A DNA stretch of 64,000 nt from a virus. Numbering within the stretch: position 1 is the first letter of the stretch; every line of letters begins with the position of its first letter. This document shows, piece by piece, positions 34,218 through 50,582 of the stretch. The position numbers and the translations under genes are program-made. The notes under the pieces are model-generated. The model ran no database searches. It was not told where the DNA came from and saw only the letters and a list, made by a program, of their open reading frames with translations. The DNA lies in the IMG/VR virus record IMGVR_UViG_3300017963_000190, positions 124,001-188,000 of that record; one strand, written 5' to 3'.

Positions 34218-34231
34218 TGAAGGACGAATCT

Positions 34232-34249: not shown

Positions 34250-34444
34250 CCTGGAAAACTATTATTCAGCATAGGAAGCATGAACGGTGACAGATTGGTG
34301 TGATGGTAAAATGTGTCTGTGAGACAATGGAAAAATGGATCTAGCCAAAAACAGAAAAGCCCACGCGTGCTGCGCAGGCCTGTAGATGGCTTATGGTTCA
34401 GTTGCCCATTGGTATTTGGTGGCAATTGGTCTATGACCGCAATT

Positions 34445-34460
34445 GAACCGTCTCCGGTTC
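34445..34460. repeat. Hairpin with GNRA-type loop on the minus strand
   Basis: GAACCG (34445-34450) and CGGTTC (34455-34460) are perfect complements around a 4-nt loop. On the minus strand the loop is GAGA, a GNRA tetraloop that makes a stable RNA hairpin. It lies about 200 nt downstream of the 359-aa gene. No U-run follows. Confidence 0.35.
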
Positions 34461-34657
34461 TACCAAGGTTCTATTTGGATGTCAAGAAAATAATCCCCTC
34501 TCCCTCACGATTTTCTCTGGAGATATCATACGTTATTCACCAGGGGTTTACTAGGAGCATTCAACTAAAATGGTCAAAAATCTGCGATAAGGCGCACCAA
34601 TCCATCCTCGCTGGTACGCAGCTAGCAAATTCCCCCATAGGCCGCCATCTGCGCTTT

Positions 34658-35737
34658 TTAGGGAGGAGCGCGAGGCCGCGCCTCGATGCAGCGGTTCTGT
34701 ATTTGAGGGGTGCTTGATAGCTCCGCAACCGATGGATGTAGGATGTCTTGACCACGCCGCCGTTTGGTACGGATCAAGGAAAGCGCTACCAATGTAAGAA
34801 TGCACGCCTTCGCTTCGTACAGCGGGAGCCGTGGCTTCTCTTGCAGAGCTTGTACATCTGCTCGTTTGTGACAGAAAAGCTGCCACCGTGGCTCGAACGT
34901 AAGATTGGGCAGTCGTGGGAGGAGCTCGTGCTCAAAGGCTGGCAGCCTATGTAGCTGCATCCTCGTCGTGCTCTCGCAATGGTCGTGGCGTACCTCTACC
35001 TGCTCTGGATGCCTAAGCGAGTATGACCAGAGACGTCTTAGCATATCTGGGAGACGCTCCGCCAGCTTTTCGGCTACCTCTAGTGGTAAGGTTAGCTCAG
35101 TGCAATCATTGATGGTGGCCGCACGTACCTCGTCGGATCCCTTTCTTAGTACACGCCGAATCCTGAATCGGTAAGCTTTTTGGGGGGCGCACTTTCTACG
35201 CCATTCTGCACACGCAGCTTCGCGCACAGGGCCAGACGTGGCGTGACACTTGGGATGAGGGTTGCGGTAATTTGCGTTCTCACATAGTAATTCTAGGACT
35301 TCCTCTCCTAGGTAGTCCTCGAAGCCTGCATCCTGCCGGCGCAGTTGGAGCGGAGTTCTGCATAGGACACGCCTCTCTCCGAGCTCCATGTAGTAGCGAT
35401 ATTTGTCTGGACCCCGCTGCAGCCCGGCGCTGTAGGATAGGAGATGGAGGAACGTGCGGTAGAAGGCGCGCAGATGCTCTTCGTCGGAAAGGTTGTAGAA
35501 GAGCGGACGTGTTTCTTGGTGAAACCTGTAAGGTTTTCTGTATCCTAGCTGGCTAGTCCCTGTGGCGTGCTGGTTGAGCTTTGTGATCCCCAGTAGGATG
35601 GTACTGTGGGTGGGCAACAAGTACGTGCATACTTGTTCCGGGACCCCTTTCCACCACTGTCCGGTTTCAAGGGATACCAGGAAACGCGCTTCTCGCGCTC
35701 CTGGGAAGGATAAGCTATGTGGCCGACGGGGGTGCAC
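34658..35737 (-). CDS. Hypothetical basic protein rich in Arg, His and Cys (359 aa)
   Basis: A GTG at 35737 is the longest start. The strong AAGGAGG touches the GTG, so the true start is uncertain. Helix-rich segments include YNLSDEEHLRAFYRTFLHLL and VAEKLAERLPDMLRRLWSYS. Cys and His residues are scattered (residues about 165-185, CENANYRNPHPKCHATSGP; CAEWRRKCAPQ), which could bind zinc or DNA. No known family is recognised. It follows the NYN gene and ends the replication-side transcript. Confidence 0.55.
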   Translation of the reverse strand: MHPRRPHSLSFPGAREARFLVSLETGQWWKGVPEQVCTYLLPTHSTILLGITKLNQHATGTSQLGYRKPYRFHQETRPLFYNLSDEEHLRAFYRTFLHLLSYSAGLQRGPDKYRYYMELGERRVLCRTPLQLRRQDAGFEDYLGEEVLELLCENANYRNPHPKCHATSGPVREAACAEWRRKCAPQKAYRFRIRRVLRKGSDEVRAATINDCTELTLPLEVAEKLAERLPDMLRRLWSYSLRHPEQVEVRHDHCESTTRMQLHRLPAFEHELLPRLPNLTFEPRWQLFCHKRADVQALQEKPRLPLYEAKACILTLVALSLIRTKRRRGQDILHPSVAELSSTPQIQNRCIEARPRAPP

Positions 35738-35755
35738 CTCCTTATTTTACAAGGA
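35737..35755 (-). promoter_or_regulatory. Weak copy of TTGTAAAATA motif at the end of the NYN gene
   Basis: The minus strand reads TCCTTGTAAAATAAGGAGG, spanning the NYN gene stop codon and the AAGGAGG ahead of the 359-aa gene. The core CTTGTAAAATA matches the strong site at 62293. Its position would leave almost no leader for the 359-aa gene, so it may be only a stop/SD coincidence. The flanking CTCCTT/AAGGAG is also palindromic. Confidence 0.3.
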
Positions 35756-36712
35756 GATCTCCCGATTCTCGCCGCGGGCGTCCTGGGTACTGTCGTTCTG
35801 GACGGTGTCTATTTTGACGTCGACCTTTTTTGTCTCCGTCTTATTGGAGGAATCTTCATTAGATTCGATTACTTGGGCTACTAGCTCATGTCCTGGATTG
35901 AGGCGGCAGGCACTCACCTTGTTCTGCGTGCCGTCGACATTGTCTACGTCGTAGATGTCGACAACCCCAGCATCCACAGCACGCTGGAACAGCTGCTGCT
36001 TGAGCTCAGGGGTGCGCATCCCGTCCAGGCGCCACATCACCTTGTTGATGAAATAGCGAGCTCCCACGAAGGGCATTCGATCTTCGCTGCTATGTAGCAG
36101 CCGGATAAGTGCATCGAATGGGTAAGACTCGATGTTGGCTGATGGTTTCTTATCCACAGGCGGCGCTTCGTCGCTGTCGTCCTTGAAAATGGCGCGGCTC
36201 GGGAGATAGATACAGCTGTCGCGCGACAGCACGCGCCGGTCACGTGGGTAGTTGCCTACTAGAATGACAGTGATCCCCCTGCTGATTGCTTGTCGAGCCA
36301 ACGCTGTGTAGTCGGTAGGGCCGACAATCAGGATGCAGATTTCAATGCTGCCGTGCAGAATTTCTGTGTGAGCGTCAAAAAGCAGGTGGAGGTTTACGTC
36401 GTCTTTCGTTACCCCCTGTGCAGTCGTGGCCACCGGAGTAATGCCCCGTTTCAGCCATTCTTCTGCATCGAGCCCATCGGCCTCCTCCATCACAGTGGTG
36501 TAGTAAACCACAGCTTTGGATAAGCGCCCAGATGTACGAGCAAACTCCTCAATGGGGGGAGCTAGTACAGAGTCCTCGTTGTGGTTGTCGATCAACACGG
36601 CGTCCAGATCTACAAAAAGCCCGACATTGGGGCGTGATCTCATACCGATGATGCGGTCCTGTAGGGAGCTGAATCCGCGGTCTGTGTGTTGTCTGGATCT
36701 CTTGTTGTGCAT
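35747..36712 (-). CDS. NYN/LabA-type PIN-like nuclease with C-terminal helical domain (321 aa)
   Basis: I start at the ATG at 36712 (GAGGAG, 9 nt spacing). A longer frame would run into the helicase gene. N-terminal NYN features: NVGLFVDLDAVLIDN (D35), a central GVTKDDVNLHLLFDA (D104/D105) and ILIVGPTDYTALA (D134), followed by GITVILVG. In typical family members the third motif is SGD-D-F; here it is GPTD-Y, so one acidic position differs. Residues 196-290 form a winged-helix-like region. The likely role is RNA cleavage. It is 16 nt downstream of the UvrD helicase gene. Confidence 0.7.
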   Translation of the reverse strand: MHNKRSRQHTDRGFSSLQDRIIGMRSRPNVGLFVDLDAVLIDNHNEDSVLAPPIEEFARTSGRLSKAVVYYTTVMEEADGLDAEEWLKRGITPVATTAQGVTKDDVNLHLLFDAHTEILHGSIEICILIVGPTDYTALARQAISRGITVILVGNYPRDRRVLSRDSCIYLPSRAIFKDDSDEAPPVDKKPSANIESYPFDALIRLLHSSEDRMPFVGARYFINKVMWRLDGMRTPELKQQLFQRAVDAGVVDIYDVDNVDGTQNKVSACRLNPGHELVAQVIESNEDSSNKTETKKVDVKIDTVQNDSTQDARGENREISL

Positions 36713-36728
36713 TTTACTATTCTCCTCG

Positions 36729-38825
36729 CTAACGCCACCCTGCTTGTCTGCGTTTCCCTCTTCGTCGTCCTCTTCCTCTGCGCTTCTTTGCGTCCAACGC
36801 GCGTAGTAAATAGCTGCCGGCATTGGTGTTGCTCATGTCCGCATACGCCACGGTGTCTCCCATCTCTTCTATGAATGGGGAAGGCATGCAGTCCATGTAT
36901 TGATTGAAGCGGAGCTCGCGTCTAGGCCATGTTACGGTGAGCTCACGCTCCGCCCGAGTTAGAGCGACGAAAAATATACGTCGTTCCTCTTCCAAGTCTT
37001 CTTGCAGCTGACCCTCGGACTTGGGGTTACCGTAGTCATCGGTGTCCTTTATAATGGGCATAAGGCCGTCCGTCGCCCCCACTACATACACCTGCTTGAA
37101 CTCCAAGCCCTTCGCAGCATGACACGTCATCAGGTGCACGTGGTTGCCATCTGTTTCCTCGTCTGTGGATTGCATGAGGGCAGCCCATTCCAAGAACCGC
37201 AGCAGTCCCGCTCCATGGGTGGCGTCAAATTCATGGGCTGCAGCAATAAGCTCCTGGAGGTGATTGAGCTTGTCGATGCCCTTTTCGGTTGAGTCCTTCT
37301 TGAGATGGGTGGCGTACCCCGAAAGTTTGGCGGCTTGTTCTATGATAGGTGCGACCTTATCTTTGGGCATTGTACGCAGGCTTTTGAATATTCGCCGCAG
37401 CTCCTCTGCCCCAGCTCTGGCTTGCCCTGTGAGGACTTCGTCATGCAGCCTCTTTTTGAACGCTTGCATGACAGTTAGGTTCCTCTCTTCCTTCGCTGTG
37501 TAGAATTTAGCGTAGCTCACTTCCCCAAAACGCCGCGGTGGTTTGTTGTAGATGCGGATGAAGCTGCTTTCGTCTGCCCCGTTCACGACGAGCCGCAAGT
37601 ATGCTAGGATGTCTTTTACTGTGGCCCTGTTGTAGAATCCGATGCCGCCTACGACTTTATGTGGAACATTGTGGGTGACCAGCAGTTCCTCGAATATCCG
37701 CGATCGAAAGTGAGCTCGGTAGAGCAAAGCGAAGTCTCGAAACTCTGCTTGACCTGCGCGTACGGCAGATGTGATCTCGTCTACCACAGCCGCACCCTCT
37801 TGCCTATTGTCTTGGTAAACCACACATCGGACAGGACTTCCTTCCTTGATCACAGGTTTGATGCTTTTGTCGGGTCGGTCTGGGTTGTGCGCAATGACGG
37901 AATTTGCCACCTCAGCAATAGGAGGTGTTGATCTGAAGTTCTCTTCTAGGAAGTAAACCGAGACATCCTTGTAGTCTCTTTCCATGAGCTTCAGATTTTT
38001 GGGCTGCGCTAATCGAAAGGCGTAGATGGATTGGTCACCATCTCCCACCACAAACACGTTCCCCCAGTGGCTAGCCAAGTACTTCACCATCTCGTACTGG
38101 CTGACGCTTGTGTCCTGGGTCTCGTCCACTAGTAGGTGCCTTGTCCAGGTTGAGTATTTGGTCCGCACGTCCTCATCATCTCGCAGTAGGCGTACAGTGC
38201 GCATGATGAGATCGTCAAAATCGACGGACTGATTGCGGCGCAGGAAGTAATTGTACTTATCGTAAACCTTGGCGTAGAAGAACTCTTTTTCATCCCCTCC
38301 GCCTTGGTCCATTAGCTGGTCAAAATACTCGTCGGGAGTGATCAGGTGGCTCTTGAGTCGAGATATGAATCTCTTAGAGCAATCTGGATTCCGCCAGTCT
38401 TTCCATCCCCTGATCTCTTTCTTGTCCTTTTCGGTAACTATTGCTGTTGCCTGGACCAGGTAGGACTTGGTGTCGTCGTCATCGCAGATCGTGAACCCGG
38501 AGCTGAGCTGCGCTCTTTCGTGCTCTGCACGAAGGATTCTAGCTCCCAGGGAGTGGAAGGTGGAGATGACTATTTTCTTGGCACGTGCCTTCGGAACCGC
38601 GCCTTGGACACGTTCTCGCATTTCGTTGGCAGCCTTGTTTGTGAACGTAATGGCTACCACGTGGGTTGGTGATATTTCGTGGTGTTCCACAAGGTGCGCT
38701 ATTCGGTGAGTGATCACCCGGGTCTTGCCTGACCCTGGTCCAGCAAGGACAATCGCTGCTCCGTCTAGGTGCTCTACTGCCGATTTTTGCGCAGGGGTTA
38801 ATCCAGTAAGGTAATCTTGGGACAT
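36729..38825 (-). CDS. UvrD/PcrA-like superfamily 1 DNA helicase (698 aa)
   Basis: All main SF1A motifs are present: LTPAQKSAVEHLDGAAIVLAG with Walker A GPGSGKT (residues 29-35), ITFTNKAANEMRERV (motif Ia), DETQD (234-238) with GDGDQSIYAFR (261-271), then FRSTPPI, a VHLMTCHAAKGLEF motif and VALTRAERELTV near the end. It acts in replication or repair as a 3'-5' helicase. The C-terminal end is a basic RRGRGRRRGKRR tail that may aid DNA binding. It is 14 nt downstream of a small gene and encoded with the clamp and exonuclease. Confidence 0.9.
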   Translation of the reverse strand: MSQDYLTGLTPAQKSAVEHLDGAAIVLAGPGSGKTRVITHRIAHLVEHHEISPTHVVAITFTNKAANEMRERVQGAVPKARAKKIVISTFHSLGARILRAEHERAQLSSGFTICDDDDTKSYLVQATAIVTEKDKKEIRGWKDWRNPDCSKRFISRLKSHLITPDEYFDQLMDQGGGDEKEFFYAKVYDKYNYFLRRNQSVDFDDLIMRTVRLLRDDEDVRTKYSTWTRHLLVDETQDTSVSQYEMVKYLASHWGNVFVVGDGDQSIYAFRLAQPKNLKLMERDYKDVSVYFLEENFRSTPPIAEVANSVIAHNPDRPDKSIKPVIKEGSPVRCVVYQDNRQEGAAVVDEITSAVRAGQAEFRDFALLYRAHFRSRIFEELLVTHNVPHKVVGGIGFYNRATVKDILAYLRLVVNGADESSFIRIYNKPPRRFGEVSYAKFYTAKEERNLTVMQAFKKRLHDEVLTGQARAGAEELRRIFKSLRTMPKDKVAPIIEQAAKLSGYATHLKKDSTEKGIDKLNHLQELIAAAHEFDATHGAGLLRFLEWAALMQSTDEETDGNHVHLMTCHAAKGLEFKQVYVVGATDGLMPIIKDTDDYGNPKSEGQLQEDLEEERRIFFVALTRAERELTVTWPRRELRFNQYMDCMPSPFIEEMGDTVAYADMSNTNAGSYLLRALDAKKRRGRGRRRGKRRQAGWR

Positions 38826-38839
38826 TGTTTGCCGCCTTA

Positions 38840-39064
38840 TTAGGATACGGCGTCGCTGGCTTCCTTGACCTTCTTCATCGCCGCATGATGCCTACGATTT
38901 TTGGCTTCGTCTATCGCTGCTTGAACATCCTGTTCGTCGAGACCGCAGGGCTTGTATCCGTAGTACGTCTTAAATTCTCTGCGGAGTGTCTCTAGCTTAG
39001 AGAGTATCTTCTTCTCGTAGTTCTGTACGTCTTTCGCATCCTCGTCTTTTTGCTGGTTCGTCAT
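38840..39064 (-). CDS. Small hypothetical basic/acidic helical protein (74 aa)
   Basis: I choose the ATG at 39064, which overlaps the upstream stop in an ATGA arrangement and has GGAG about 9 nt upstream. An alternative ATG at 39079 is too close to the same GGAG. The protein is charged and helical (NYEKKILSKLETLRREFKTY, AAIDEAKNRRHHAAMKKVKE). No motif is seen. It lies between the clamp-side gene and UvrD and is possibly a helicase accessory. Confidence 0.6.
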   Translation of the reverse strand: MTNQQKDEDAKDVQNYEKKILSKLETLRREFKTYYGYKPCGLDEQDVQAAIDEAKNRRHHAAMKKVKEASDAVS

Positions 39065-39648
39065 AGACCATCTCTCCAATTGTCTGCGGTTTCTAAATGC
39101 GTGGCCCCATCACTGAACCCCGCCTCATCGTGCGCTCTGGTTTTTCCTTTATAGACTAGCAGGTAGTCGCATACACCAATGCCTGCCTTATACAGGCGCA
39201 TGTTGTCGTCGGTAGCTATGGGAGCTGGATCCTTACGTCGCACATCTTTTTTGTCGGTGTAGCAGATCGCTACGTACCATGGATAGGCATGGATAACTGG
39301 TGTGCCCACAAACATCAGGATGTACCCGAGCAGCCGCTCGCGACTAAACTTAGCTGAGCGGCCGTAGACGCCCAGAAGGGATACCGTGTCCCCGTGCTGC
39401 TTGATGGTCTTGGTGACCATCTCTTCGTCGTGGGCCAACCCCTTTAGCTTCAAAACGAAGCCGTTGTCCTCGCAGGTAGTGAGGAAAGTCTTGTCGTAGG
39501 CGTCCCAATTTTTCGTGGCCAGCTTTATTAGTCTCGCGAGCTTTCCACGTCCTCTCTGTGCTTTTGTAAGTCCACCTGGGATAGGTAGTACTCGATTGTG
39601 CCGTCTTGTATATTTTCGGCCCTTACGATTATTTGCGCGCGATTCCAT
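39061..39648 (-). CDS. Hypothetical basic protein overlapping the clamp gene (195 aa)
   Basis: The ATG at 39648 is preceded by AAGGATTGAATC, a plausible ribosome site, although the first 121 nt overlap the 3' end of the clamp gene. The N-terminus (NRKGRKYTRRHNR) is very basic. The body has beta strands (GYILMFVGTPVIHAYPWYVA) and conserved-looking acidic residues. No family is recognised. I cannot exclude a shorter protein from an internal start, but no better start with a ribosome site is visible. Confidence 0.5.
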   Translation of the reverse strand: MESRANNRKGRKYTRRHNRVLPIPGGLTKAQRGRGKLARLIKLATKNWDAYDKTFLTTCEDNGFVLKLKGLAHDEEMVTKTIKQHGDTVSLLGVYGRSAKFSRERLLGYILMFVGTPVIHAYPWYVAICYTDKKDVRRKDPAPIATDDNMRLYKAGIGVCDYLLVYKGKTRAHDEAGFSDGATHLETADNWRDGL

Positions 39649-40742
39649 GATTCAATCCTTAGCGGCGCAACATCTGGCGCCAGCGCGACCACTTCCGTAA
39701 AGTATAGTTGATTGACGTATATGATGTGCGGCTCACCATCTCCGAGCTCGATCCTCTCAGATGGTATAGTGGACAGAGCTTTGTTTTTCTCCTGCCTGGC
39801 CGCCATCTGCACCTTTTTGGGAGTCACTCGGATATTGAGTACGAGTGGAGTACTGTCCGACGAAACACTTTTGATGTCGTTCAGCGCCTCCATCATATCC
39901 TTGCGCTTCACTGAGAACTTGCTGTCACAGACTCCAGCTATCGTGCTCTGGTACGCCTGCTCCGCATCTTGGAACGGAAGGTCCAGGGTAGGGTAGAATA
40001 CGTCTGCGTCCTCTGTCTGGAATCTGACCATGGAGGCCATCTCTTCTTCTGCGCGCGTGTGCACACTTATTACTACCTCTTTTGCGGTGACGCTGTCAAG
40101 TATTCTTCCCAAGGCAGTTGGCTTCAAAATAAATTTGGTGGAAGTCCGCACTTTTACTGTGGGAGATATCCGGACAAACCGTGCATAGCTGAAGAAGTCA
40201 ATGCCACAGATGTCGAGCCGGTTCGCCTTTTTCCCGCGTCGAAACTGGAACTGCATTCTGAGGTCATCCACCTTGAGGATATGCTTCAATTCTACCATAG
40301 AAGCCGCGGCGGCCAACATAGCGGTGGGTAATTTGACCACCGCTTTAAGGTTAGTAATGTCCGGCTGCGCGGTCTTGAATAGGTCCTCTGAATCCGTATC
40401 CAAGGCGAGATTGAACTTCGATTTTTTGTTGGAAATCTCTATTTGATCTGCGTCGTTTTGCGCGTCGAGCGTGAGCTCTCCTGAGAGGCGCAGTTTCGAT
40501 ATAGAATCGAGCTCAACGTACGCTCGTCCGGGCCGCATCACTGTAGCAGGAACGGCGAGTTTCACGTAGGCTCCCAGAAAAGTCGATTCCACGAACAGCC
40601 CCTTTTCTGTCACCGTGAGCCTCCCCTTCATGGGAATAGGCTGCTCATCCTTCTTTTTGGTCTTGGGGTCGCTTAGTCTCTGGAGAGCTAGTGCAGCCTT
40701 GATGGCTTTTTTGAACTCCGTGGCCTTAGTAGTGGCTTTCAT
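39528..40742 (-). CDS. Sliding clamp, DNA polymerase III beta-like (404 aa)
   Basis: The fold is that of a beta-type clamp. A GRLTVTEKGLFVESTFLG strand set and a VPATVMRP segment occupy domain 1. Further domains contain FYPTLDLPF and a C-terminal NQLYFTEVVALA, followed by APLRIESWNRAQIIVRAE and YYLSQV, which correspond to the terminal strands of beta clamps. The length is slightly above the usual 370 aa. The clamp tethers the phage polymerase to DNA. It is encoded 4 nt overlapping the exonuclease gene stop and followed by other replication genes. Confidence 0.75.
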   Translation of the reverse strand: MKATTKATEFKKAIKAALALQRLSDPKTKKKDEQPIPMKGRLTVTEKGLFVESTFLGAYVKLAVPATVMRPGRAYVELDSISKLRLSGELTLDAQNDADQIEISNKKSKFNLALDTDSEDLFKTAQPDITNLKAVVKLPTAMLAAAASMVELKHILKVDDLRMQFQFRRGKKANRLDICGIDFFSYARFVRISPTVKVRTSTKFILKPTALGRILDSVTAKEVVISVHTRAEEEMASMVRFQTEDADVFYPTLDLPFQDAEQAYQSTIAGVCDSKFSVKRKDMMEALNDIKSVSSDSTPLVLNIRVTPKKVQMAARQEKNKALSTIPSERIELGDGEPHIIYVNQLYFTEVVALAPDVAPLRIESWNRAQIIVRAENIQDGTIEYYLSQVDLQKHREDVESSRD

Positions 40743-41689
40743 CGTGCTTCACGCTCGTTTCTGGTAAGCAGCCTTATCACATTTTCTTCGATGAGGATGT
40801 CATTCTGCTGACAAAATCTATGGAGCCTGCTCTTCGAGGCCGCGCCGGTCATGTTTTTTACGCTCAGTGCGTCCCTGGCACGTACCAGATCGAAGTTTCT
40901 TTGGGCCTCTCGTCTATGTTTTACAACACGCTCAAGCTCCCTTGTACTAATGACCTGCTGCGCTTTGGCTGCTCGGTAAGCATCTCTGGGGCAAGTTCCC
41001 ATGGCCGCGAGCTTTTTTATCGATGCTGTGCGCATGCGTGGGACCGCTCGGGGGATGTTGTCCGCCGGATCCCCCAAGAACGCTTTTAGACAAGCCACGT
41101 TCCTCGGAAGCACGCCCAGCACTTCCTTGCATTTGGATGCATTTATGATCCCAAGCTTTTGAGTTTCCACCACAATTCTGTCACCCTGGATCACTTGCCA
41201 TAAGTCTCTATCTTCGCTAACCACGGTGATCTCCGTTTGTGGGTGCCTATTTTTTGCCCACACTGCGATAGCATCATCAGCTTCACCTTGTGGAGCTCTC
41301 GTCGCCCGGATAGCTAGATTTTCCAATAGTTTCAGAGATTTCATGTAGGTTTGCATGACCTCTATATTCTGCACCCGTTGGGCTTTGTAGCCGTCCCATA
41401 TCCTTCGTCGGTGCTGCTTCCCAGCTCCCTCTAATGCGCATACTAGTGTCGCATTTGGGTACCTTTTTCGTAATTTCGCTAGCATCAACATCAATAATTT
41501 CATGGTCTTGGACTGACGTTTTTTAACATAATAGTCATGCAACTGCTGATTCTCTAATGATTCCAGTTTTCTATCTGTGTTGACTGAATAAAATGCACGG
41601 TAGACCACGTTCGGCCAGTCCATTACAACCTGTTGATTATAATGAGGAAATATTCCGGTCATGCCTGTTTCCGGTATTGTGCTTTTCAT
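40739..41689 (-). CDS. FEN/5'-3' exonuclease (RNase H-like flap nuclease) (316 aa)
   Basis: The ATG at 41689 fits the leader of the minus promoter at 41729-41757. An upstream extension would run through the promoter region. Motifs: VVMDWPNVVYRAF (D24), CALEGAGKQHRRRIWDGYKA (E87, Arg/Tyr-Lys arch residues), GEADDA (136-140), VSEDRDLWQV (D160, D162) and FLGDPADNIP (D207, D210). These are the two-metal sites of the FEN family. E87 sits where Asp is usual. It removes RNA primers and flaps. The next gene is the clamp. Confidence 0.85.
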   Translation of the reverse strand: MKSTIPETGMTGIFPHYNQQVVMDWPNVVYRAFYSVNTDRKLESLENQQLHDYYVKKRQSKTMKLLMLMLAKLRKRYPNATLVCALEGAGKQHRRRIWDGYKAQRVQNIEVMQTYMKSLKLLENLAIRATRAPQGEADDAIAVWAKNRHPQTEITVVSEDRDLWQVIQGDRIVVETQKLGIINASKCKEVLGVLPRNVACLKAFLGDPADNIPRAVPRMRTASIKKLAAMGTCPRDAYRAAKAQQVISTRELERVVKHRREAQRNFDLVRARDALSVKNMTGAASKSRLHRFCQQNDILIEENVIRLLTRNEREAR

Positions 41690-41709
41690 TTTGACTTTCG
41701 CATTTATGG

Positions 41710-41738
41710 TTGACAATGCACTTACCAGAGTATATACT
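41710..41738 (+). promoter_or_regulatory. Consensus sigma-70 promoter reading right, drives the small plus-strand gene
   Basis: TTGACA at 41710-41715 and TATACT at 41733-41738 with a 17-nt spacer. Transcription would start near 41745 and reach a strong SD and ATG 37-40 nt downstream. It is the best host-like promoter in the window. Its -10 overlaps the -10 of an opposite promoter. Confidence 0.75.
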
Positions 41739-41757
41739 ATGAATGTAGGAGTTGTAA
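41729..41757 (-). promoter_or_regulatory. Sigma-70-like promoter reading left, drives the exonuclease and clamp operon
   Basis: On the minus strand, TTACAA (plus 41752-41757) and TATACT (plus 41729-41734) with a 17-nt spacer. The -10 lies in the palindrome AGTATATACT shared with the plus promoter. Transcription would start near 41722, about 33 nt before the exonuclease ATG. The -35 matches consensus at 4 of 6 positions. Confidence 0.55.
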
Positions 41758-41782
41758 TTCTTTTTTGAAAGGAGCAGCCGCC

Positions 41783-41965
41783 ATGAAAAATCAGCAGCAG
41801 CTCCGCGTGAGCAAAACACAACACCAGCTGCTTCGCCGGTACCCTCGCCACCCAGGCGTTTGGAACTCTCTAGGTATCCGTCTAGGGGGCGACACCCGGG
41901 TAGTTGTGGGATCCCGCAGCGTTCGGCTCGTGAGGCCTGGGTCTCGTCGGCGTCAAAGTGGTTAG
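41783..41965 (+). CDS. Small Arg-rich protein encoded inside the minus-strand replication cluster (60 aa)
   Basis: The ATG at 41783 has a textbook GAAAGGAG-8nt-ATG ribosome site, the same as the SSB gene. A consensus promoter sits upstream. The stop overlaps the helicase stop in the TTAG form seen at both other convergent pairs. The protein has about a dozen Arg and almost no acidic residues. The N-terminal half is helix-like (MKNQQQLRVSKTQHQLLRR); the C-terminal half is strand-like (GIRLGGDTRVVVGSRSVRLV). No known family is recognised. It could bind nucleic acid or a host protein. Regulated or early expression is suggested by its own promoter. Confidence 0.7.
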   Translation: MKNQQQLRVSKTQHQLLRRYPRHPGVWNSLGIRLGGDTRVVVGSRSVRLVRPGSRRRQSG

Positions 41966-43326
41966 CTAGCATCGCTATCCCAGAGACTTCCGTCGACCTT
42001 AGCGTCGTCGATACTGCTTTTTCTCGCTCCCAACCCTCCCACATTCTCTGTTTCTATTCGCATCTTTTCGAACAGCATATTGGCGGTGAGCATACGTTTG
42101 CCCGTGTGCCGCGCCTTCGCTAGTTTGAGCTCCGTTTGCTTGACTTCCTCCTGTTCTTGCCCCCACTTCCACCACATCCAGTAGTCCGTGTTTTCTTCTA
42201 TCCCTTTGCCGTACTTCACTCGTTCTTCTTCTGATAACTGCGTCAGCAAAACGGGAACGCATTTGAGCCTTTTCGCCATGCCTTTGAAGTATCGACTGTA
42301 CTCCAGCTGCATCTTCCACTGATCCATTCCTTGTCCGTGCATCAGTGTAATGTAGTCGATGTAAATCGCATCGAACATGTATGGAGCCAGATTTGCCTCC
42401 AGCTTCTGAGGAGTGAACAGTGGATCCTTGACATCCCAGACGGTGAACGTGCAGTTTTTTCGTTGCCCGTGCTTGTGAAATAGCCTGTAGTTTTTGCTGA
42501 CTAAGTTCCGTTCTTGTGTAGTCAGGTCCTTTGAGTAGCGTATCTTGTTGTGCAGTACACCACTGATGCACGAAAGCATCCGCTTGATCAGCTCATCCTC
42601 GGACATCTCCAGCGATACATAGCACACATTCCTGTTGGTGCGTGCATACTGGTTGATGGCCATCTGCATTGCCATCGTGCTCTTGCCGCCACCAGAAGGT
42701 GCAGAGATGGTTACCAGATTGCCCCTTTCCCACCCTCGCACGTGGTTGTCGAGCCCTTTGAGTCCAGTGGATATGAATCTATTCGGCCGGAACGTAAGCA
42801 GGTCGTCCAGCTTCTTCTTTGCCTCCGCGGCAGTTTGTCTCTTTCCTAGGTGGAAAAGCGGCTGCTTGTCGAACCCCCCGCGAATGCCAAGCAAGGCACT
42901 CTCCATAGTTTGCGCGATGGACTCGATACCCTCTTCATCCACCGCTCCAGCAGCGATGTCGTTTATGGTCTGCTGCGCGTCATAGATGATGCGTATGTGG
43001 CGGTGCGTCTTCAGCTTCTCTAGAAGACCGACTACTTCAGCCTTTTTGTACGACCCGGCGGATTTACGTTTAGCCGGTGTGGCCTTGATTAATGTGCTCT
43101 GAGACTCAGTTAATGCTGGGTCTTCGCTGAAAGCCTCTGCATCACCTAGGTTCTTCCCAAGGGTCAGCAGTGTGGTCATACGCTTGCGTATTGCCTTGGC
43201 GTCTTCTGTTCCGTAGTCGTCCTCGTCGGTCTCCGTCAAGATCTGCGCTTTGATGCGCTGGCTGCGTGTTTCCAGCGCGCATATTAGGAGCTTCTGCTCA
43301 ACGATCGCATTTACCAGATTGGCCAT
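41962..43326 (-). CDS. Replicative DNA helicase, DnaB-like (454 aa)
   Basis: The N-terminal helical half (residues 1-160) is shorter and divergent. The C-terminal RecA-like half begins FISTGLKGLDNHVRGWERGN, with Walker A APSGGGKST (209-217), CYVSLEMSEDELIKRM and MFDAIYIDYITLM (Walker B region), followed by LTQLSEEER. This is the DnaB pattern. It unwinds DNA at the phage fork as a hexamer. It is encoded 3 nt after a degenerate helicase-loader-like gene, supporting a working pair. Confidence 0.85.
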   Translation of the reverse strand: MANLVNAIVEQKLLICALETRSQRIKAQILTETDEDDYGTEDAKAIRKRMTTLLTLGKNLGDAEAFSEDPALTESQSTLIKATPAKRKSAGSYKKAEVVGLLEKLKTHRHIRIIYDAQQTINDIAAGAVDEEGIESIAQTMESALLGIRGGFDKQPLFHLGKRQTAAEAKKKLDDLLTFRPNRFISTGLKGLDNHVRGWERGNLVTISAPSGGGKSTMAMQMAINQYARTNRNVCYVSLEMSEDELIKRMLSCISGVLHNKIRYSKDLTTQERNLVSKNYRLFHKHGQRKNCTFTVWDVKDPLFTPQKLEANLAPYMFDAIYIDYITLMHGQGMDQWKMQLEYSRYFKGMAKRLKCVPVLLTQLSEEERVKYGKGIEENTDYWMWWKWGQEQEEVKQTELKLAKARHTGKRMLTANMLFEKMRIETENVGGLGARKSSIDDAKVDGSLWDSDAS

Positions 43327-43329
43327 ATA

Positions 43330-43917
43330 TTACCCCTCGTCGATCAGATCCTCTGGGCGCGTGTCTTTCACTTTGAGCACCATGTCTGGGTATTTTCCAA
43401 TTTTCTTGTAGGTCCATGTCTCTGGTGCCGTATTTCCAGCAACCACAAGTATCTTGAAGGCATACCTGAAGCGTTCTAGAATGTCCCGCACCGTTTGCGC
43501 CCGTTCTGCCGTGATGTCTCCTAGGATGTTATGCACCAGTACGCACCGGGGTGCTTCCTCAAAGAAAGGCACAGTACTAGCGGAGTTGATTATGGCCGAG
43601 TTGAACCCTTTGATTTTTCGAAGACCATTCAGTATGAGGTGTGCCGCATAAAGAGCCCCAGTGTCTGTGGGTGAGGAGGTTACCGTGATGAGCGGACTTT
43701 TGCGAGGAGGCTCCTTAACGATGGCCTTGATCCAATGCTTTTGGGCTACCGCAGAGATCTTTTCTCCACGAAACGGAGTCACCTGAAGGCTGAGTGAGCT
43801 GAGCCTAGGCGACCAGCAATGTAGAGGTACACCTGCCGACGCCAGCTTCCTCTCGTGCACACTTTTTGCTAGCAGCCTGTCGGGATTGTCTAGTCGCCTG
43901 CCCTTATTTTTTGGCAC
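43330..43917 (-). CDS. Degenerate DnaC/DnaI-like helicase-loader homologue (195 aa)
   Basis: The layout matches the AAA+ part of DnaC/DnaI loaders: a short N-terminal helical lead (LLAKSVHERKLASAGVP), ITVTSSPTDTGALYAAHLIL at the P-loop position, CVLVHNILGD at Walker B, then a helix and ERFRYAFKILVVAGNTAPETW (sensor-like). The Walker A Lys is absent (SSPTDTG replaces GxxGxGKT) and the Walker B Asp pair is His-Asn, so ATP hydrolysis is unlikely. Its place directly before the helicase gene supports a loader or accessory role. It overlaps the SF2 helicase gene by 14 nt. Confidence 0.55.
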   Translation of the reverse strand: MPKNKGRRLDNPDRLLAKSVHERKLASAGVPLHCWSPRLSSLSLQVTPFRGEKISAVAQKHWIKAIVKEPPRKSPLITVTSSPTDTGALYAAHLILNGLRKIKGFNSAIINSASTVPFFEEAPRCVLVHNILGDITAERAQTVRDILERFRYAFKILVVAGNTAPETWTYKKIGKYPDMVLKVKDTRPEDLIDEG

Positions 43918-45430
43918 GTGGCCTCCTCTGCCAAATACCCACGCCCATTGTCCTGGTGCGGTCTATCTCTATTTTTCGTATCTTCCATCCGTTGGCCCGA
44001 CAGGTTCGGACACGACTTTTATACGCACCGTCCAGCTGACCTCCGCTGTCCACGTAGTCCCTGATGATTGGATTCCTTTTTCCCTTCAGCCAGCGCCTTG
44101 CTCTGCCGTATCCTTGCTCCGTCACCGTCTTCGATTTTGCCGGCGTCACAAAGTGCAAGCAGTCTACTGATGGTAAGTTTACAAGCTGGTTGAGGACTTT
44201 TCCGGCAAAAATACCCTGATACTTCCCCTGGCGCAAATCTTCGTAGATGGCCTCGCGTACGCGCTTCGGCGTTTTCCCATCTACATATGCCACATCGTAG
44301 TTGTCCTGAGACATCATCTCGTACAGCTTGCGCGCTAGTTGCCGCCTCTGTGAGATAGCGGCCACAATCCGACCATCATCGAAATCCTGTCTGAGGTATT
44401 TTTGGATGATCTCGTAGCGTTCTTCGTTCTTGACGAGCTCCGCCAGCACCACATTCCATTGGTAGTAGTCCGGGAATGGTTTTTGGTATACCCATGCTGG
44501 CGCTTCCACGCCGGTTTCGATGAACCACACTGTAGGAGGCATCTGACGTGCCTTTCCCTCCGCTACCACAGGCCCCACTGTGTCGAAGATAAGGTGGTGC
44601 CTGTGGTCAGTGCGTTCTATGGTGGCCGACAATCCCAAGAATGAAAACGGATTTATAGCTTGGACGACTTTGGAATATACCGGGGCACCGAAGTCATGTA
44701 CCTCATCTAGGAGGAGCAGCCCAAATGAATTTCTGTGCTTGCGTAACCAGCGTTTACCTCTTTCGTATTGGAAGGTTTGCACGGTGGCCACTGTGATGGG
44801 GAACCACTGCGATTTCTTTACTGCCTCGCTGATAGACCCCACCAAGCGCATTTCGTGCTCTTCTTCCAGATCATCGATGTTGGTGTGCCTGCGGATCTCT
44901 CCTATCCACTGCCCGATGCCGTCGGTTTGCTTCATCATGAGCAGCGTTGTTTGCTTCATACGAGCAAGCGCCAGAAGGCCCATCACGGTTTTTCCAGACC
45001 CTGGATCCCCTTTGATGATTCCGTATCCCTTGCGCAACCACTCATCGACGCATCGCGCCTGATCTTCGTAGCGGTGATCAGCTTTCGTTGATGGATTGAT
45101 TTGGAGGTCCACTCCGAGAGGGGAGACTGGTCGCAGGTCTCTGTAACCCCTTCTTAGTAGAGGCAGGAGTTTGGATAGATCTCCGCGAGGCAGCGATAGC
45201 CCGGGTATGCCGGAGGCAGTGAAAAACTCACGGTACGTATTGAGAGTGTGTACCTCAACTTCTTTGTCTTTGACTGGCTCCCCAAAGGAATCCAGGACAA
45301 GATCCCCCAGCTCGTCTTCCCTAGGGACGAACCGGAATTCCTTCCATTCGTAGTGCCATCTTTTGAGTAGATTATCATCGACTGCGTCGTGTGGCACGAG
45401 CAGCTTGTTGGAGAGAATACTTTTTGGCAT
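43904..45430 (-). CDS. Superfamily 2 DEAD/H-box-type helicase (508 aa)
   Basis: The N-terminal 115 residues are a specific domain. Walker A GDPGSGKT lies at 141-148, DEVH at 242-245 (LLLLDEVHDFG), LGLSATIERTD is motif III, and the C-terminal RecA-like half ends with EQGYGRARR (motif VI). It is a UvsW or RadD-like helicase likely used in recombination, branch migration or replication restart. The start at 45430 lies 14 nt from the upstream gene. Confidence 0.85.
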   Translation of the reverse strand: MPKSILSNKLLVPHDAVDDNLLKRWHYEWKEFRFVPREDELGDLVLDSFGEPVKDKEVEVHTLNTYREFFTASGIPGLSLPRGDLSKLLPLLRRGYRDLRPVSPLGVDLQINPSTKADHRYEDQARCVDEWLRKGYGIIKGDPGSGKTVMGLLALARMKQTTLLMMKQTDGIGQWIGEIRRHTNIDDLEEEHEMRLVGSISEAVKKSQWFPITVATVQTFQYERGKRWLRKHRNSFGLLLLDEVHDFGAPVYSKVVQAINPFSFLGLSATIERTDHRHHLIFDTVGPVVAEGKARQMPPTVWFIETGVEAPAWVYQKPFPDYYQWNVVLAELVKNEERYEIIQKYLRQDFDDGRIVAAISQRRQLARKLYEMMSQDNYDVAYVDGKTPKRVREAIYEDLRQGKYQGIFAGKVLNQLVNLPSVDCLHFVTPAKSKTVTEQGYGRARRWLKGKRNPIIRDYVDSGGQLDGAYKSRVRTCRANGWKIRKIEIDRTRTMGVGIWQRRPRAKK

Positions 45431-45444
45431 TGCGTAGTAATGGG

Positions 45445-46017
45445 CTAGGTAATATTCTCGATTCCAGCGTACCGGTCCATTATATACGGAATCACGCTGG
45501 GGTCAATAGATGGCGCCTCTGGATCCTGTACAATTGAATAATCTTGCTGCTTGCTCGACCACAGCATGATTTTCAGGATGGAAAACACGTCGTCTCTTGG
45601 GTTCAGGCTACAGTTGATCCTCACGATACAGAGCTTCTGTACAACAACCACGACGGCGTCCCATACTAAGATACTGTCAATCCTGCGAATGCCGCTTCGG
45701 CTGATAACGCAGAATAGGTTATTCTGCGCATAAGGAGGAGCGAGGCGGTACACGTCGTCTGGGACAGGGACCGTCCCAAATATTGGAGCAATCATCATAG
45801 CAATCGGTATGATGTGCCGCCTCTCGTATCCGACAAGAAGGTCAGTCTGCTTGGTGGGTTCCCCCACCTCGTAGATTCTCGCAGACTCCGGTAGCTTCAG
45901 CAGTCGAGGATGGCCTGCCGGTGGCGCATACTCATGATTAGTGGGCTCTTGCCGCACAGTAGCATACTGCTGCATGTCCCGTAGCATATCCTCTGGGTTT
46001 TGTGCGCCATTTGCCAT
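45445..46017 (-). CDS. Hypothetical protein in the replication operon (190 aa)
   Basis: The ATG at 46017 overlaps the upstream stop (TAATG) and has GGGAG 7 nt upstream. This start is preferred to one 16 codons earlier. The sequence has a beta-rich core (HIIPIAMMIAPIFGTVPVPD, FCVISRSGIRRIDSILVWDA) and short helices at the end. No motif is recognised. Tight coupling to neighbours makes it a real operon member. Confidence 0.6.
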   Translation of the reverse strand: MANGAQNPEDMLRDMQQYATVRQEPTNHEYAPPAGHPRLLKLPESARIYEVGEPTKQTDLLVGYERRHIIPIAMMIAPIFGTVPVPDDVYRLAPPYAQNNLFCVISRSGIRRIDSILVWDAVVVVVQKLCIVRINCSLNPRDDVFSILKIMLWSSKQQDYSIVQDPEAPSIDPSVIPYIMDRYAGIENIT

Positions 46018-46415
46018 TAGTAGTCTCCCTTGGGCTTTATCTGGATTTCTTTTACTTTGTTGCACACATTACCGTCCGCGTCCTTTAGGTCGTCATCCTC
46101 GAAGCCAAAAGAGGCGTACAGATCCGTTTGTCTTGCTCCTACAACGGACACCTCCCCATAGAACGCTGCGCTCTCATTTCCCGGTTCTAGCTCCTTTTTG
46201 ATCAGGGAGCCAGATTGTATCCCTACTACTTTAATTCTGTACTTTCCGTGCCCAGCTTCGTCTATGTCCCACGCTACGACTAGTAAGTGGTCAGGATGAC
46301 CGCTTAACAGGAACGCCTGTTTTTCCTCTGGGTCGAAGTTTATTGTGTGCGGCTCTTTTTCTCCAAACCGCACGACCACAGGATCTTTATTTTTCTTCGT
46401 TTTTCTTGGCGCCAT
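46017..46415 (-). CDS. Hypothetical protein with basic N-terminus (132 aa)
   Basis: The ATG at 46415, with AAGAAG upstream, is chosen; a frame starting further up is redundant with the preceding gene. After a basic lead (APRKTKKNK) it is beta-rich (DHLLVVAWDIDEAGHGKYRI, ESAAFYGEVSVVG). It overlaps the preceding gene by 29 nt. No family is recognised. Confidence 0.55.
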   Translation of the reverse strand: MAPRKTKKNKDPVVVRFGEKEPHTINFDPEEKQAFLLSGHPDHLLVVAWDIDEAGHGKYRIKVVGIQSGSLIKKELEPGNESAAFYGEVSVVGARQTDLYASFGFEDDDLKDADGNVCNKVKEIQIKPKGDY

Positions 46416-46878
46416 CGTTCTTCTTTTCCTGGTGCCGTTCTGCTTGCTCCAGTCTCTCCCGCTCTTTTGCAGCACGTTCTCTAAGTTCCTGCGCGAAGTT
46501 GTCTTGGACGTGCTTGTCCCACATTTGCGCGTCTACCCACGCGTACTGCTGGTCGGTATCGAAGAAGCCGTCATGCTTCATGACGTATGCACGGTATGAT
46601 TTACCGGAGTGAGAGGACTTCAAGACCAGAATCGGTTTCACGACGGCCGGTATGAGAGGCCCTTCTAAGGCGTCTGTTACTCCAACCTCGAAGTAGAAGT
46701 TGGGGAAGTTTCGTAGGTCTATGTTGAACTCCCGTTTGAAATCCTCTGGGGTAGCTTCGTCGGTGCGAAAGAACCTTTGAACCGCCTCAGCTACTTTCTC
46801 CGGGCTTGACAGCCTCATAAAGAAAATCCAATTTGGCAGGATATCATCTAATGTATCAGGCATCTGTTTCGTTCCCAT
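46387..46878 (-). CDS. Hypothetical protein with highly charged C-terminus (163 aa)
   Basis: It starts at the ATG at 46878, 1 nt after the upstream stop. A beta-rich core (NFYFEVGVTDALEGPLIPAV, KPILVLKSSHSGKS) is followed by a long helix that becomes very charged (RERAAKERERLEQAERHQ). No motif is seen. Location between the ribonucleotide reductase module and the SF2 helicase gives no firm function. Confidence 0.55.
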   Translation of the reverse strand: MGTKQMPDTLDDILPNWIFFMRLSSPEKVAEAVQRFFRTDEATPEDFKREFNIDLRNFPNFYFEVGVTDALEGPLIPAVVKPILVLKSSHSGKSYRAYVMKHDGFFDTDQQYAWVDAQMWDKHVQDNFAQELRERAAKERERLEQAERHQEKKNDGAKKNEEK

Positions 46879-46879
46879 G

Positions 46880-47845
46880 CTATACCTTTCCTGGAGGAGG
46901 TACTAGCTCTATGTTTTCTGGCATCTCGTCTTCTGGTATAGACCTCCCATCTACTACATCCTCAAATTTACTTACGTCTTCTCCGCGCTCTTTCGCCTCA
47001 GCGATCATATCCTTCATCTGCTGCTCGGTGAGTATTTCTGGGTAACCTTCAAAGTCCCCCTCTTCATTGGATCCCTCAGACACGCGTTCTCCGACTCCGT
47101 CCAGTGTGAGCGGCTCCACGTGTTTACCCTCTTCCAAATTTATGGCTTCACCATTCATTATGGCTTCTAGGTGCAGCTCAGCTAGCTGCATGTCCATTAC
47201 GGAGTCCGGTTTGTCCACGAATACCATGACAATAGCATCCACTATTTCCACTTCGTAAGGAGGATCCTCTTTGTCAAAATCCACGTATAGCATCAACGTT
47301 ACCGAGTACCTACCCTCTGGCCATCGGTCGATGTGTAGATTCTCTAGCAGACTGCTGTCTGCTAAGAAATTCGGGCATGCGAATGCCGGCGTAAAGTGCG
47401 GCCCGTCTACCACCTCCCATGTATTGGGTTTGTCAAATGGAACGTCTGGAAGCTCATCCACGTTTTTTGGGAACTTGTCTATACCAACACTTACTGTAAA
47501 GAAGTGTGAGTATATGGAGTCCAGGGTCCTATGGTCCGCATCCACAAACCCAAAGATAGTGAGCCCCTTTTTAGCTATTTCTTCCGAGGGGAGCTCTGGG
47601 TCTGCACCTGTTTTCGTTACGTGTGAGATTCGCTTTGAGATAGAGTTCCCGGTGATCTCCCCATCGCTTGTCTCTTCAATGGTGAGTATGTCTCCTACCA
47701 CGATCGGGTTACGTGGGTTGCTCACCATCAGGTCGAATGTTTTCAGTCCCTCTTCTACGAGCCTGAACTCTTCTGCGTCGCACGTGATCCGCAGCTGCTG
47801 CGGTATTCTATGTACCTGCTTTTTATTTTTGGTTCCTTCTGTCAT
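46880..47845 (-). CDS. Hypothetical protein with ASCH/DUF3850-like N-terminus (321 aa)
   Basis: The ATG at 47845 has GAGG 8 nt upstream. The first 70 residues (PQQLRITCDAEEFRLVEEGL, then KTFDLMVSNP and VVGDILTIEET) follow the pattern of DUF3850, a member of the ASCH fold that often binds RNA or modified nucleotides. The remainder is an uncharacterised beta-rich domain with a long acidic C-terminal tail (VSEGSNEEGDFEGYPEIL). It overlaps neither neighbour by more than the ribonucleotide reductase stop region. The assignment is by pattern only. Confidence 0.5.
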   Translation of the reverse strand: MTEGTKNKKQVHRIPQQLRITCDAEEFRLVEEGLKTFDLMVSNPRNPIVVGDILTIEETSDGEITGNSISKRISHVTKTGADPELPSEEIAKKGLTIFGFVDADHRTLDSIYSHFFTVSVGIDKFPKNVDELPDVPFDKPNTWEVVDGPHFTPAFACPNFLADSSLLENLHIDRWPEGRYSVTLMLYVDFDKEDPPYEVEIVDAIVMVFVDKPDSVMDMQLAELHLEAIMNGEAINLEEGKHVEPLTLDGVGERVSEGSNEEGDFEGYPEILTEQQMKDMIAEAKERGEDVSKFEDVVDGRSIPEDEMPENIELVPPPGKV

Positions 47846-47855
47846 TGGTTGGCCC

Positions 47856-50582
47856 TCAGCAGCTAGTGTACCCGCATGATTCACACCACGGGCATTTTCC
47901 TGGTATTTGCACGTAAGCAGCTATACCACAGTCTGGGCAAATGTCTGGGTGGGCGCCTACTATGCTGTCTGTGTTCTCAGAGCTGTCAAACGCGCTTGTG
48001 CTTCCTTTACTCTTCACTATAGTGCTGATTTCTGGACCGGTCTCGTCTTTACCAGTTATCTCTTGGATGAAGTCTTCGAGTCGATCCTCTCCAAGGGGTA
48101 TATTTGACAGCGGGAAATTCCCGGACAAGTAGTCGTGGATGATCTGCGCTATTCCGTCTGGAAGGGATATCACCTGGTTCGTGCCGAATCCTACAGACCC
48201 CTTTCCCGGAATCTTGTGTAGTTGGTCTCTGATAATCTCCAGTCTTGTTTCCTGGGAGATGTATTCCCCGTTTGGCCAGCGTAGGATGGCAGACACGAGC
48301 CTTCCTAATGCTTGTACGTCTGCGGATACATCTCCTTTGCCGCTGACGAGGAACATGTCGTACGGGTCACCGCTTTTTGGATGCATGCGTATAGTTCCAT
48401 GTACCCTCCCCACCGGGGTGTCCTTGCTGTGGGTAACGCTCAAACCAAAGTCGATTTTGGGTCGTAGATCCCCAATGCTTGGATTTTTGTACTCGTCCAC
48501 TACCTGCACCGGTATGTACCCGTCATCCCCCTCGGTTTCCTCAGTCTCCGCTGACTTATAGTAGAGAACTTGCCTGTCCCGCGACTCGTCTCGATACACC
48601 GTTCCACCTTTGCACCCGAGCTCGTACATTAGCATGTAGGCCGATGCTACATCTTGTTTGGTAGCTGAGTTGGGGAGGTTGACCGTCTTAGAGATGGATG
48701 CGTCCACCCATTTTTGCGCGGTAGCTTGTGTTCTTACATGCTCTTCAGGAGTGATGTCTTTAGTGGTCACAAAATAGTCTGGAGAGTTGTCGCCGAATTG
48801 CTGGCGTATCTCTCCAAGCACACTGGCCTCTTCGTTTGCAGATCCTATACGGCTCCTGGCGATCCATGAGGGAAGGAAGTAAGGCTCGATTCCTGTAGTG
48901 GTGTTGAGCATCGTTCCCACAGATCCTGTAGGTGCCACAGTATTGAGTGTGACGTTTCTGACTCCATGCTGACGGATGTCAGTTACGAGATTGTGGTCCT
49001 CTTGTAGAGTTTGTATGAAACCGGAGCTGACAAATTTTCCTGCATCGAATTTAGGGAAAGGCCCGCGTTCCATCGCGAGCTCACAGGAGGCACGGTAGCT
49101 TTCTGTAGCTAGCAGGCGGAACAGCCAGTCGGTGAATACGAGCGCTTGCTCGGATCCGTATCGTAGCCCTAGTCGTATGAGCATCTCTCCGTAGCCAAGG
49201 ATACCTAGTCCTACTCGCCTCTCTGATTTTTGCTGCGCCTCGATCTTCGGGTCGTGGTACACGTTAAGATCGGTGACGTTGTCTAGGAAGCGTACTCCCA
49301 TGTGAACCGCACGTATGAAGTCTTCCGACTGGAACGATTCCATCGCCTCTGCGGCGGCAACTTCTTGTGGGGGTAACTTACCAAGATGCACGAACTGCGA
49401 AAGGTTGAGGTGAGCTAGATTGCAGATACCATATGGGGGCAAGAATTGCTCGCCACATGGATTTGTGCAGGTAAGTCTATTATAGTAATAAGAGTTGGAC
49501 AGTTTGTTAGCACGCTCCAGAAAGAGGATCCCTGGTTCGCCACTTTCCCATGCGTGGTCGATGACAAGCTGCCATAGCTCCTTTGCCTTCATGGTTTGGA
49601 ACACTTTTATTGGACGTTCCTGCTGCCGCCATTTGTCGATGTTCCCATCCCATTCTTTATCATAGGACGGGTGTGTGATGTCGGGGAATACCAACTGCCA
49701 ATCATCGTCATTCTTTACGGCATTCATGAAATCATCGGATATCAGCACCGAGACATTTGAGTTTTCTAGGAGTCCTTTGTTGCGCGATATCGTCTGTCCC
49801 CCTGCTCTGAACTCCATCCGTTGCGCTTTCGCGGTGACGAACTCGATGATGTCTGGGTGCCAAATCCATAGGCCCTGAAGAGACGCCCCTCTCCTGGATC
49901 CCCCTTGTTCCACGGCCCCGGTTATTTGTGAGTATTGTTCCATCCAACTGACGGCGCCGCTTGATCGCCCATTCACCTTCCGCACCACCTCGCCGCGGGG
50001 TCTGTGTGTACTGTTATCCCATCCAATCCCACCACCTAGGCTGAATGTGTCGAATAACTGCTCCCAGTGCTTTGCTATCCCTTTTCTGGAATCGTGGGGA
50101 GCTGGAAACACGTAGCAGTTGAAAAAAGTGAGCGTTCGATCCTTACAGCCAAGACCGGCCAGGATTCTCCCTGCTGGGATGAATCTTCGCTCTACCATCG
50201 CTTTGAATACCTCGTCCCTAAACGCTGTATTCTGCGGCTCGTCCGCTATGATTCCGTTGGATACCCGACGGCAAACATCCTCGTAAGTTTTTTCTAGCAG
50301 CACTTCGATCTTGTCTCGTGGAACTGCTTTCGCCACCTCCCACTCATCTTCGTTTTTGTCGCGATCCACCAAGGCCACATCATACCGCCTATCTCCCGAC
50401 TCGCTCTCCACTATTCTCAGCACGCGCCCCAACTCCCTGGACTCGATTTTCTCGCCGTCTTTCTCGAACACCCGCTGCAGCGCAACAATCACATCGTCCC
50501 CATCCTGCACTTTAGTGGTAGCATCCTTACGCGCGTAGCGATCTGCTAGGATTCGATCTTGATAAGCACCCGATTGAGACAT
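47856..50582 (-). CDS. nrdJ: Ribonucleotide reductase, adenosylcobalamin-dependent class II (908 aa)
   Basis: The ATG at 50582 has GAGGAGG upstream. The catalytic core shows FFNCYV (C156), SLGGGIGWDNS, the NPCGE motif (N374, C376, E378) and GICNLAHLNLS (C387). C376 would be the thiyl-radical Cys and C156/C387 the redox pair, by family knowledge. The last 25 residues hold four Cys (CPDC, CPWCESCGYTSC), a zinc or redox tail. The absence of a small radical subunit nearby fits class II. It makes deoxynucleotides for phage DNA. A phage-promoter-like motif and a leader hairpin lie upstream. Confidence 0.85.
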   Translation of the reverse strand: MSQSGAYQDRILADRYARKDATTKVQDGDDVIVALQRVFEKDGEKIESRELGRVLRIVESESGDRRYDVALVDRDKNEDEWEVAKAVPRDKIEVLLEKTYEDVCRRVSNGIIADEPQNTAFRDEVFKAMVERRFIPAGRILAGLGCKDRTLTFFNCYVFPAPHDSRKGIAKHWEQLFDTFSLGGGIGWDNSTHRPRGEVVRKVNGRSSGAVSWMEQYSQITGAVEQGGSRRGASLQGLWIWHPDIIEFVTAKAQRMEFRAGGQTISRNKGLLENSNVSVLISDDFMNAVKNDDDWQLVFPDITHPSYDKEWDGNIDKWRQQERPIKVFQTMKAKELWQLVIDHAWESGEPGILFLERANKLSNSYYYNRLTCTNPCGEQFLPPYGICNLAHLNLSQFVHLGKLPPQEVAAAEAMESFQSEDFIRAVHMGVRFLDNVTDLNVYHDPKIEAQQKSERRVGLGILGYGEMLIRLGLRYGSEQALVFTDWLFRLLATESYRASCELAMERGPFPKFDAGKFVSSGFIQTLQEDHNLVTDIRQHGVRNVTLNTVAPTGSVGTMLNTTTGIEPYFLPSWIARSRIGSANEEASVLGEIRQQFGDNSPDYFVTTKDITPEEHVRTQATAQKWVDASISKTVNLPNSATKQDVASAYMLMYELGCKGGTVYRDESRDRQVLYYKSAETEETEGDDGYIPVQVVDEYKNPSIGDLRPKIDFGLSVTHSKDTPVGRVHGTIRMHPKSGDPYDMFLVSGKGDVSADVQALGRLVSAILRWPNGEYISQETRLEIIRDQLHKIPGKGSVGFGTNQVISLPDGIAQIIHDYLSGNFPLSNIPLGEDRLEDFIQEITGKDETGPEISTIVKSKGSTSAFDSSENTDSIVGAHPDICPDCGIAAYVQIPGKCPWCESCGYTSC

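Follow-up and report, generated by a model that had tools for sequence, protein, structure and literature searches.

Bidirectional promoters have been newly described in bacteria by Warman, Grainger and colleagues. In two reports, a symmetrical -10 element is shared by both directions, and polymerase bound in one orientation sterically excludes polymerase bound in the other (PMC12825309, PMC10268837). Such promoters are defined by transcription starts lying 7-25 bp apart, with 18 bp as the commonest distance and 10 and 23 bp also common. In the second direction, a -10 with no other element can be enough (PMC10268837). Five bidirectional promoters were tested in E. coli, and in every one basal firing is too low for competition, which appears only once one direction is strongly raised (PMC12825309). 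Among the papers listed by our literature searches, we saw no phage bidirectional promoter with mapped starts. If a phage encoding two sigma factors carried a strong but lopsided example, it would offer a clean test of polymerase competition at a promoter with one near-consensus arm.

The window analysed here is a stretch of 64,000 nucleotides corresponding to bases 124001-188000 of the 260,067-base virus record IMGVR_UViG_3300017963_000190. The record is a large phage, as indicated by its genes for DnaB, a flap exonuclease, a clamp, UvrD and ribonucleotide reductase together with sigma-70-type promoters. Position 41710 of the window opens a site that resembles the bacterial promoters in its shared pseudo-symmetrical -10 (AGTATATACT), in a predicted start distance of 23 bp and in the expected accommodation of only one polymerase at a time. 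It differs from them in lying in a phage and not on a bacterial chromosome or plasmid, in the inequality of its arms, of which one is near consensus and one weak, in that its starts are predicted, and in lacking the commonest, 18-bp geometry. The proposal that a symmetrical -10 may be entered from either side by one polymerase at once has a documented bacterial counterpart, and the geometry of the phage site fits it (PMC12825309, PMC10268837). Judged from its letters, the 41710 site could work like a bacterial bidirectional promoter, but we do not count its membership of the class as proven.

The Rightward Promoter

The site at 41710-41738 (+) is probably a strong, mainly rightward promoter for host sigma-70. 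This reading follows from the 11 of 12 consensus bases of the rightward site, the Shine-Dalgarno sequence and ATG downstream of it, and a leftward -35 that stands at chance level. The -35 element TTGACA (41710-41715) and the -10 element TATACT (41733-41738) are separated by 17 bp, as in the near-perfect promoter of the original prediction. With the start taken as seven bases beyond the end of the -10, which ends at 41738 on the plus strand and at 41729 on the minus strand, rightward transcription is predicted to begin near 41745. Sites with at least 11 matches occurred on average 0.47 times per 64 kb, both strands counted, in 60 simulated 64-kb sequences; the window has two, this one (+) and TTGACC-16-TATAAT at 45506 (-). 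At a threshold of at least 9 of 12, the region 35000-50000 is at background (9 found, 12.2 expected). Across the whole 260-kb record the pattern TTGACA-N16-18-TATAMT occurs 12 times (once for the reversed-pattern control), 11 times in reverse orientation, and the 41710 site is the sole forward one. Additionally, the promoter has a low GC content of 37.6%, a value as low being found in 0.6% of segments.

The Palindromic -10 and the Leftward Arm

The rightward -10 forms part of the perfect palindrome AGTATATACT (41729-41738), and the expectation of one palindromic -10 common to both orientations is borne out, as TATACT is read on either strand. The palindrome occurs once in the window (0.07 expected; at least one copy in 7 of 100 shuffles) and at a single place in the record, where forms differing at no more than one base show no clear enrichment (9 places vs 6 for the control). 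If one mismatched pair is allowed, symmetry around the -10 reaches 16 bp (41726-41741). A dimeric repressor might use this extended palindrome, centred on the -10, as its operator and so cover the rightward -10, a reading to which we assign little probability, as there is no second copy, the one other match in the window carries three mismatches, as by chance (0.65 expected), and the near-forms of the 10-mer show no clear enrichment in the record.

Leftward, the letters TTACAA-17-TATACT are present as originally noted, but calling them an opposite promoter over-reads a -35 that is at chance level. The weak promoter-like site occupies 41729-41758 (-), with TATACT at 41734-41729 and a start predicted near 41722, 23 bp from the predicted rightward start. 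With a 17-bp spacer, its -35 is TTACAA (41757-41752), matching at 3/6 positions and giving 8/12 for the whole site; with an 18-bp spacer, it is ATTACA (41758-41753), with 4/6 and 9/12, respectively. When the palindrome is held fixed and spacings of 16-18 are allowed, a -35 with at least 3/6 matches arises with a chance of 0.42-0.51, and one with at least 4/6 with a chance of 0.11-0.14. The leftward -35 does not rise above chance, and the two arms do not make a strong symmetric pair.

Weak backward firing from the palindromic core is possible on this sequence. A working bidirectional promoter of the 23-bp class would go further: both strands would be transcribed from the shared -10, and one direction would limit the other only on strong activation or with a phage-changed polymerase. 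Such a promoter agrees with the palindromic -10, with the predicted 23-bp distance, one of those preferred in PMC12825309, with the ability of a lone -10 to drive the second direction in bacteria (PMC10268837), and with a leftward gene that begins at most 60 bp from the leftward start. The arms are unequal, however, the leftward -35 is not above chance, and no relatives were found to show conservation, which leaves the working bidirectional promoter a tentative and rather unlikely alternative. An ordinary directional promoter, palindromic by chance, is in our view likelier than a real lopsided bidirectional one.

Mirrored Promoters in Other Viruses

A scan of IMG/VR for the same rightward half (TTGACA-N13-AGTATATACT) gave at least 120 stretches with 121 sites, 114 once identical sequences were removed. 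Mirrored -35 elements were not enriched among the 114 distinct viral sites listed: their mean identity was 1.68/6 at a spacer of 17 and 1.56-1.88/6 across spacings 14 to 20, and at least 4/6 matches were seen at 3/114 sites with spacer 17 and at 4-11/114 with other spacings. The palindrome in the viral sites listed thus usually accompanies a one-directional promoter.

Fully mirrored promoters, in which TTGACA stands 17 bp away on both sides of AKTATATAMT, were nevertheless found in seven viral contigs (L135/L137/L140/L141, L136, L138 and L139), representing four distinct sites. Among the spacing controls, which had about twice the opportunity because their patterns are not self-complementary, a second spacer of 13 bp gave no contig and one of 21 bp gave two contigs with one identical sequence. 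Open frames diverge on both sides in two of the four distinct sites. These counts, small as they are, favour fully mirrored promoters as a real type in viruses. Like the 41710 site, they place TTGACA 17 bp from a palindromic AKTATATAMT core; they have it on two sides, whereas the 41710 site has it on one. The mirrored architecture is real elsewhere and is incomplete at 41710, where the second arm is not TTGACA-like, and the mirrored viral contigs make better test cases for the idea of a switch than this window.

The Leftward Replication Genes

The leftward genes run in the order exonuclease, clamp, two frames without identity and UvrD helicase. The 5'-3' exonuclease of the flap-nuclease type (40739-41689, -; PF02739, E 2.7e-20; phrog_107) may start at 41689 or 41662 and lacks a strong Shine-Dalgarno sequence; it is followed by a clamp-like DNA polymerase processivity factor (39528-40742, -; phrog_947, E 2.1e-9) and, farther on, by the UvrD-type helicase (36729-38825, -; PF00580, E 5e-79). 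No PHROGs match at E 0.01 was obtained for the 79- and 195-residue frames or for the 340-residue part of the frame beyond UvrD. In the exonuclease-clamp-helicase-nuclease operon named in the original prediction, the first three members were accordingly confirmed by Pfam and PHROGs, and the nuclease, which had no PHROGs match, was not. A DnaB-like replicative helicase (41962-43326, -; PF03796, E 2.8e-25) lies upstream in the same leftward block. A gap of 272 bp (41690-41961) separates dnaB from the exonuclease gene, in contrast to the close packing or overlap of most genes nearby.

The 41710 site may be dispensable for the left operon, since tightly packed leftward genes lie upstream with two further candidate entries; it would be fed mainly from there. 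One entry is the 11/12 promoter-like site TTGACC-16-TATAAT (45479-45506, -) before a helicase gene (45430-43904); this site falls within an open frame and could be a chance occurrence. The other is a second promoter-like motif, TCTTGTAAAGTA (50702-50713, -), in the gap that precedes the ribonucleotide reductase gene.

These entries bear on the mutually exclusive switch or timing device originally suggested, in which steric exclusion would time the replication genes against the small protein. Geometry is the one point in its favour. The arms are very unequal, with a leftward -35 at chance, the operon has other possible entries, the small protein is doubtful, and PMC12825309 describes bacterial bidirectional promoters without competition at basal levels. 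The switch is therefore unsupported and, in our view, very improbable.

The Short Rightward Unit

Downstream of the rightward promoter, a Shine-Dalgarno sequence AAAGGAG (41768-41774, +) stands eight bases before the ATG of an Arg-rich, 60-codon open frame (41783-41965, +), which overlaps the dnaB end by four bases. Such Shine-Dalgarno hexamers precede 12 of the 1992 ATGs of the window. The GC content of the frame is 60% vs 51%, and 0.76% of segments are as high. Its codon score is -0.084 per codon, a value reached by 26.9% of non-coding-frame segments, and only 1.0% of coding segments score that low; the codon table had as its training set 26 long open frames from the window, and most of the coding segments scored come from the same source. 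Of the first genes behind six presumed early promoters of the phage, five score 0.17-0.25 and one scores -0.03. The claim of a small rightward gene stands as regards its promoter and ribosome-binding site, but the codon usage is unlike that of this phage's genes, and the coding status of the frame is doubtful.

No relatives of the frame were found in phages, viral contigs, genome contigs, Pfam or PHROGs, nor does the record hold a second copy or repeat of the locus. Close relatives of the phage, sought by dnaB or exonuclease, were not found either; the distant dnaB relatives are below 60% identity, too far for promoter comparison, and none of the genes after dnaB scanned in three distant phages is a recognisable exonuclease. 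Between 41745 and 42819 the plus strand has no terminator-like site, such sites being at background in the region, so that an RNA from this promoter would run antisense into dnaB. A structured RNA in the gap was considered and rejected because of weak folding (z -0.73 and -0.85) and the lack of an Rfam match; the window has no tRNA.

Morons are extra phage genes with their own promoter and terminator and an atypical composition. The unit at 41710 is like a moron in its own sigma-70-type promoter, recognised by sequence only, in its atypical GC content and in its orientation, opposite to that of the otherwise packed operon around it; it is unlike one in having no recognisable terminator and no relatives found. 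We lean towards a lineage-specific or acquired small unit, and a non-coding transcript would also be possible.

We consider it rather likely that the locus is a strong, mainly one-directional host sigma-70 promoter serving a short rightward unit, with a minor leftward product. Host sigma-70 RNA polymerase would transcribe rightward from the 41710 site into a unit set backwards in the gap between dnaB and exonuclease of the packed leftward replication operon, and this unit would be either a small gene specific to the lineage or a transcript of non-coding or antisense type. As the -10 is a full palindrome, on this reading by chance, polymerase could occasionally load reversed, giving a minor product from a leftward start about 23 bp away. 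The sequence itself shows the elements, how often they occur and how unequal the arms are; we infer that the rightward promoter would be active, leftward firing minor and the left operon fed mainly from upstream. The sole forward occurrence of such a site in the record, the lack of mirrored -35 elements among the viral sites listed, the low GC content of the promoter, the high GC content of the open frame and the upstream entries for the left operon agree with this mainly one-directional reading. Against it count the non-coding-like codon usage, the uncommon palindrome and the existence of mirrored viral promoters, which means that symmetry can be functional; the 272-bp gap before the exonuclease gene and its lack of a strong Shine-Dalgarno sequence would also suit a promoter of that gene's own.

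Sigma Factors and Other Promoter-Like Classes of the Phage

The phage encodes two sigma-70-family factors: an RpoD-like protein of 477 aa (window 60831-62264, +) and an RpoH-like protein of 296 aa (record G000, 40287-41177, -), whose gene adjoins the presumed early promoters. A phage multisubunit RNA polymerase, sought with PF00562, was not found, while 14 controls were positive; PF00940, for a single-subunit RNA polymerase, gave no match, and its controls were likewise without match.

Nine of the 11 reverse TTGACA-N16-18-TATAMT sites lie at 42-61 kb of the record. Many reverse sites have a 16-bp spacer and common spacer letters (GTAAC...GC...TTATACT), which the 41710 site lacks. Within a 19.9-kb stretch, six of eight reverse sites have, 23-31 bases beyond their predicted start, a Shine-Dalgarno-preceded start codon that opens a frame of at least 73 codons. 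The reverse TTGACA/TATACT sites are presumably early promoters.

A second promoter-like motif enriched in this phage is CTTGTAAAAT, also given as (T/C)CTTGTAAAATA. CTTGTAAARY occurs 18 times in the record vs once in the reversed control, often closely preceding a Shine-Dalgarno sequence and a gene, and TNTTGTAAAAYA with at most one mismatch 27 times vs 4 in the control. Within the next 300 bases, 17 of these 27 sites have a start codon with a Shine-Dalgarno sequence and an open frame of 50 codons or more; the other 10 do not. Four distant phages have 2, 1, 3 and 0 copies vs 2, 4, 1 and 1 in the control, and without enrichment there the motif belongs to this phage. Its copies in the window include those at 34206-34217 (-), 35743-35754 (-), 50702-50713 (-), 58591-58602 (+) and 62293-62304 (+); the gap at 41690-41961 has none, and one (40917-40928) falls within the exonuclease frame. 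The motif is a candidate target of a phage sigma factor, and a cascade in which host sigma-70 acts first and a phage sigma factor with the second motif follows is plausible.

Such a cascade could turn a lopsided bidirectional promoter into an early-to-middle handover. Host sigma-70 would first drive the rightward, dnaB-antisense unit and block leftward entry; as phage sigma factors captured the polymerase, the rightward start would fade and leftward transcription of exonuclease, clamp and helicase would be released. We know of no earlier case in which a phage times transcription through a shared palindromic -10, and the handover, if true, would be the first known; we regard it as highly speculative.

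Elsewhere in the window, simple codon scoring gave no confident gene call over two long stretches, 34173-35746 and 60127-60830. At 42.1-42.5 kb of the record, two tandem small-RNA-like units (L133, 2475-2252 and 2243-2120, both -) each combine a TTGACA/TATACT promoter with a strong hairpin and, behind it, a T-rich tail, without a convincing open frame; they have no Rfam match, and the shorter one folds with z -3.2. On the minus strand of record 40000-59900, an early-type promoter class, CTTGACA-N16-TTATACT, is repeated with common spacer letters, and several of its members are followed by a near-identical ribosome-binding leader, CGAACGGAGGTAA.
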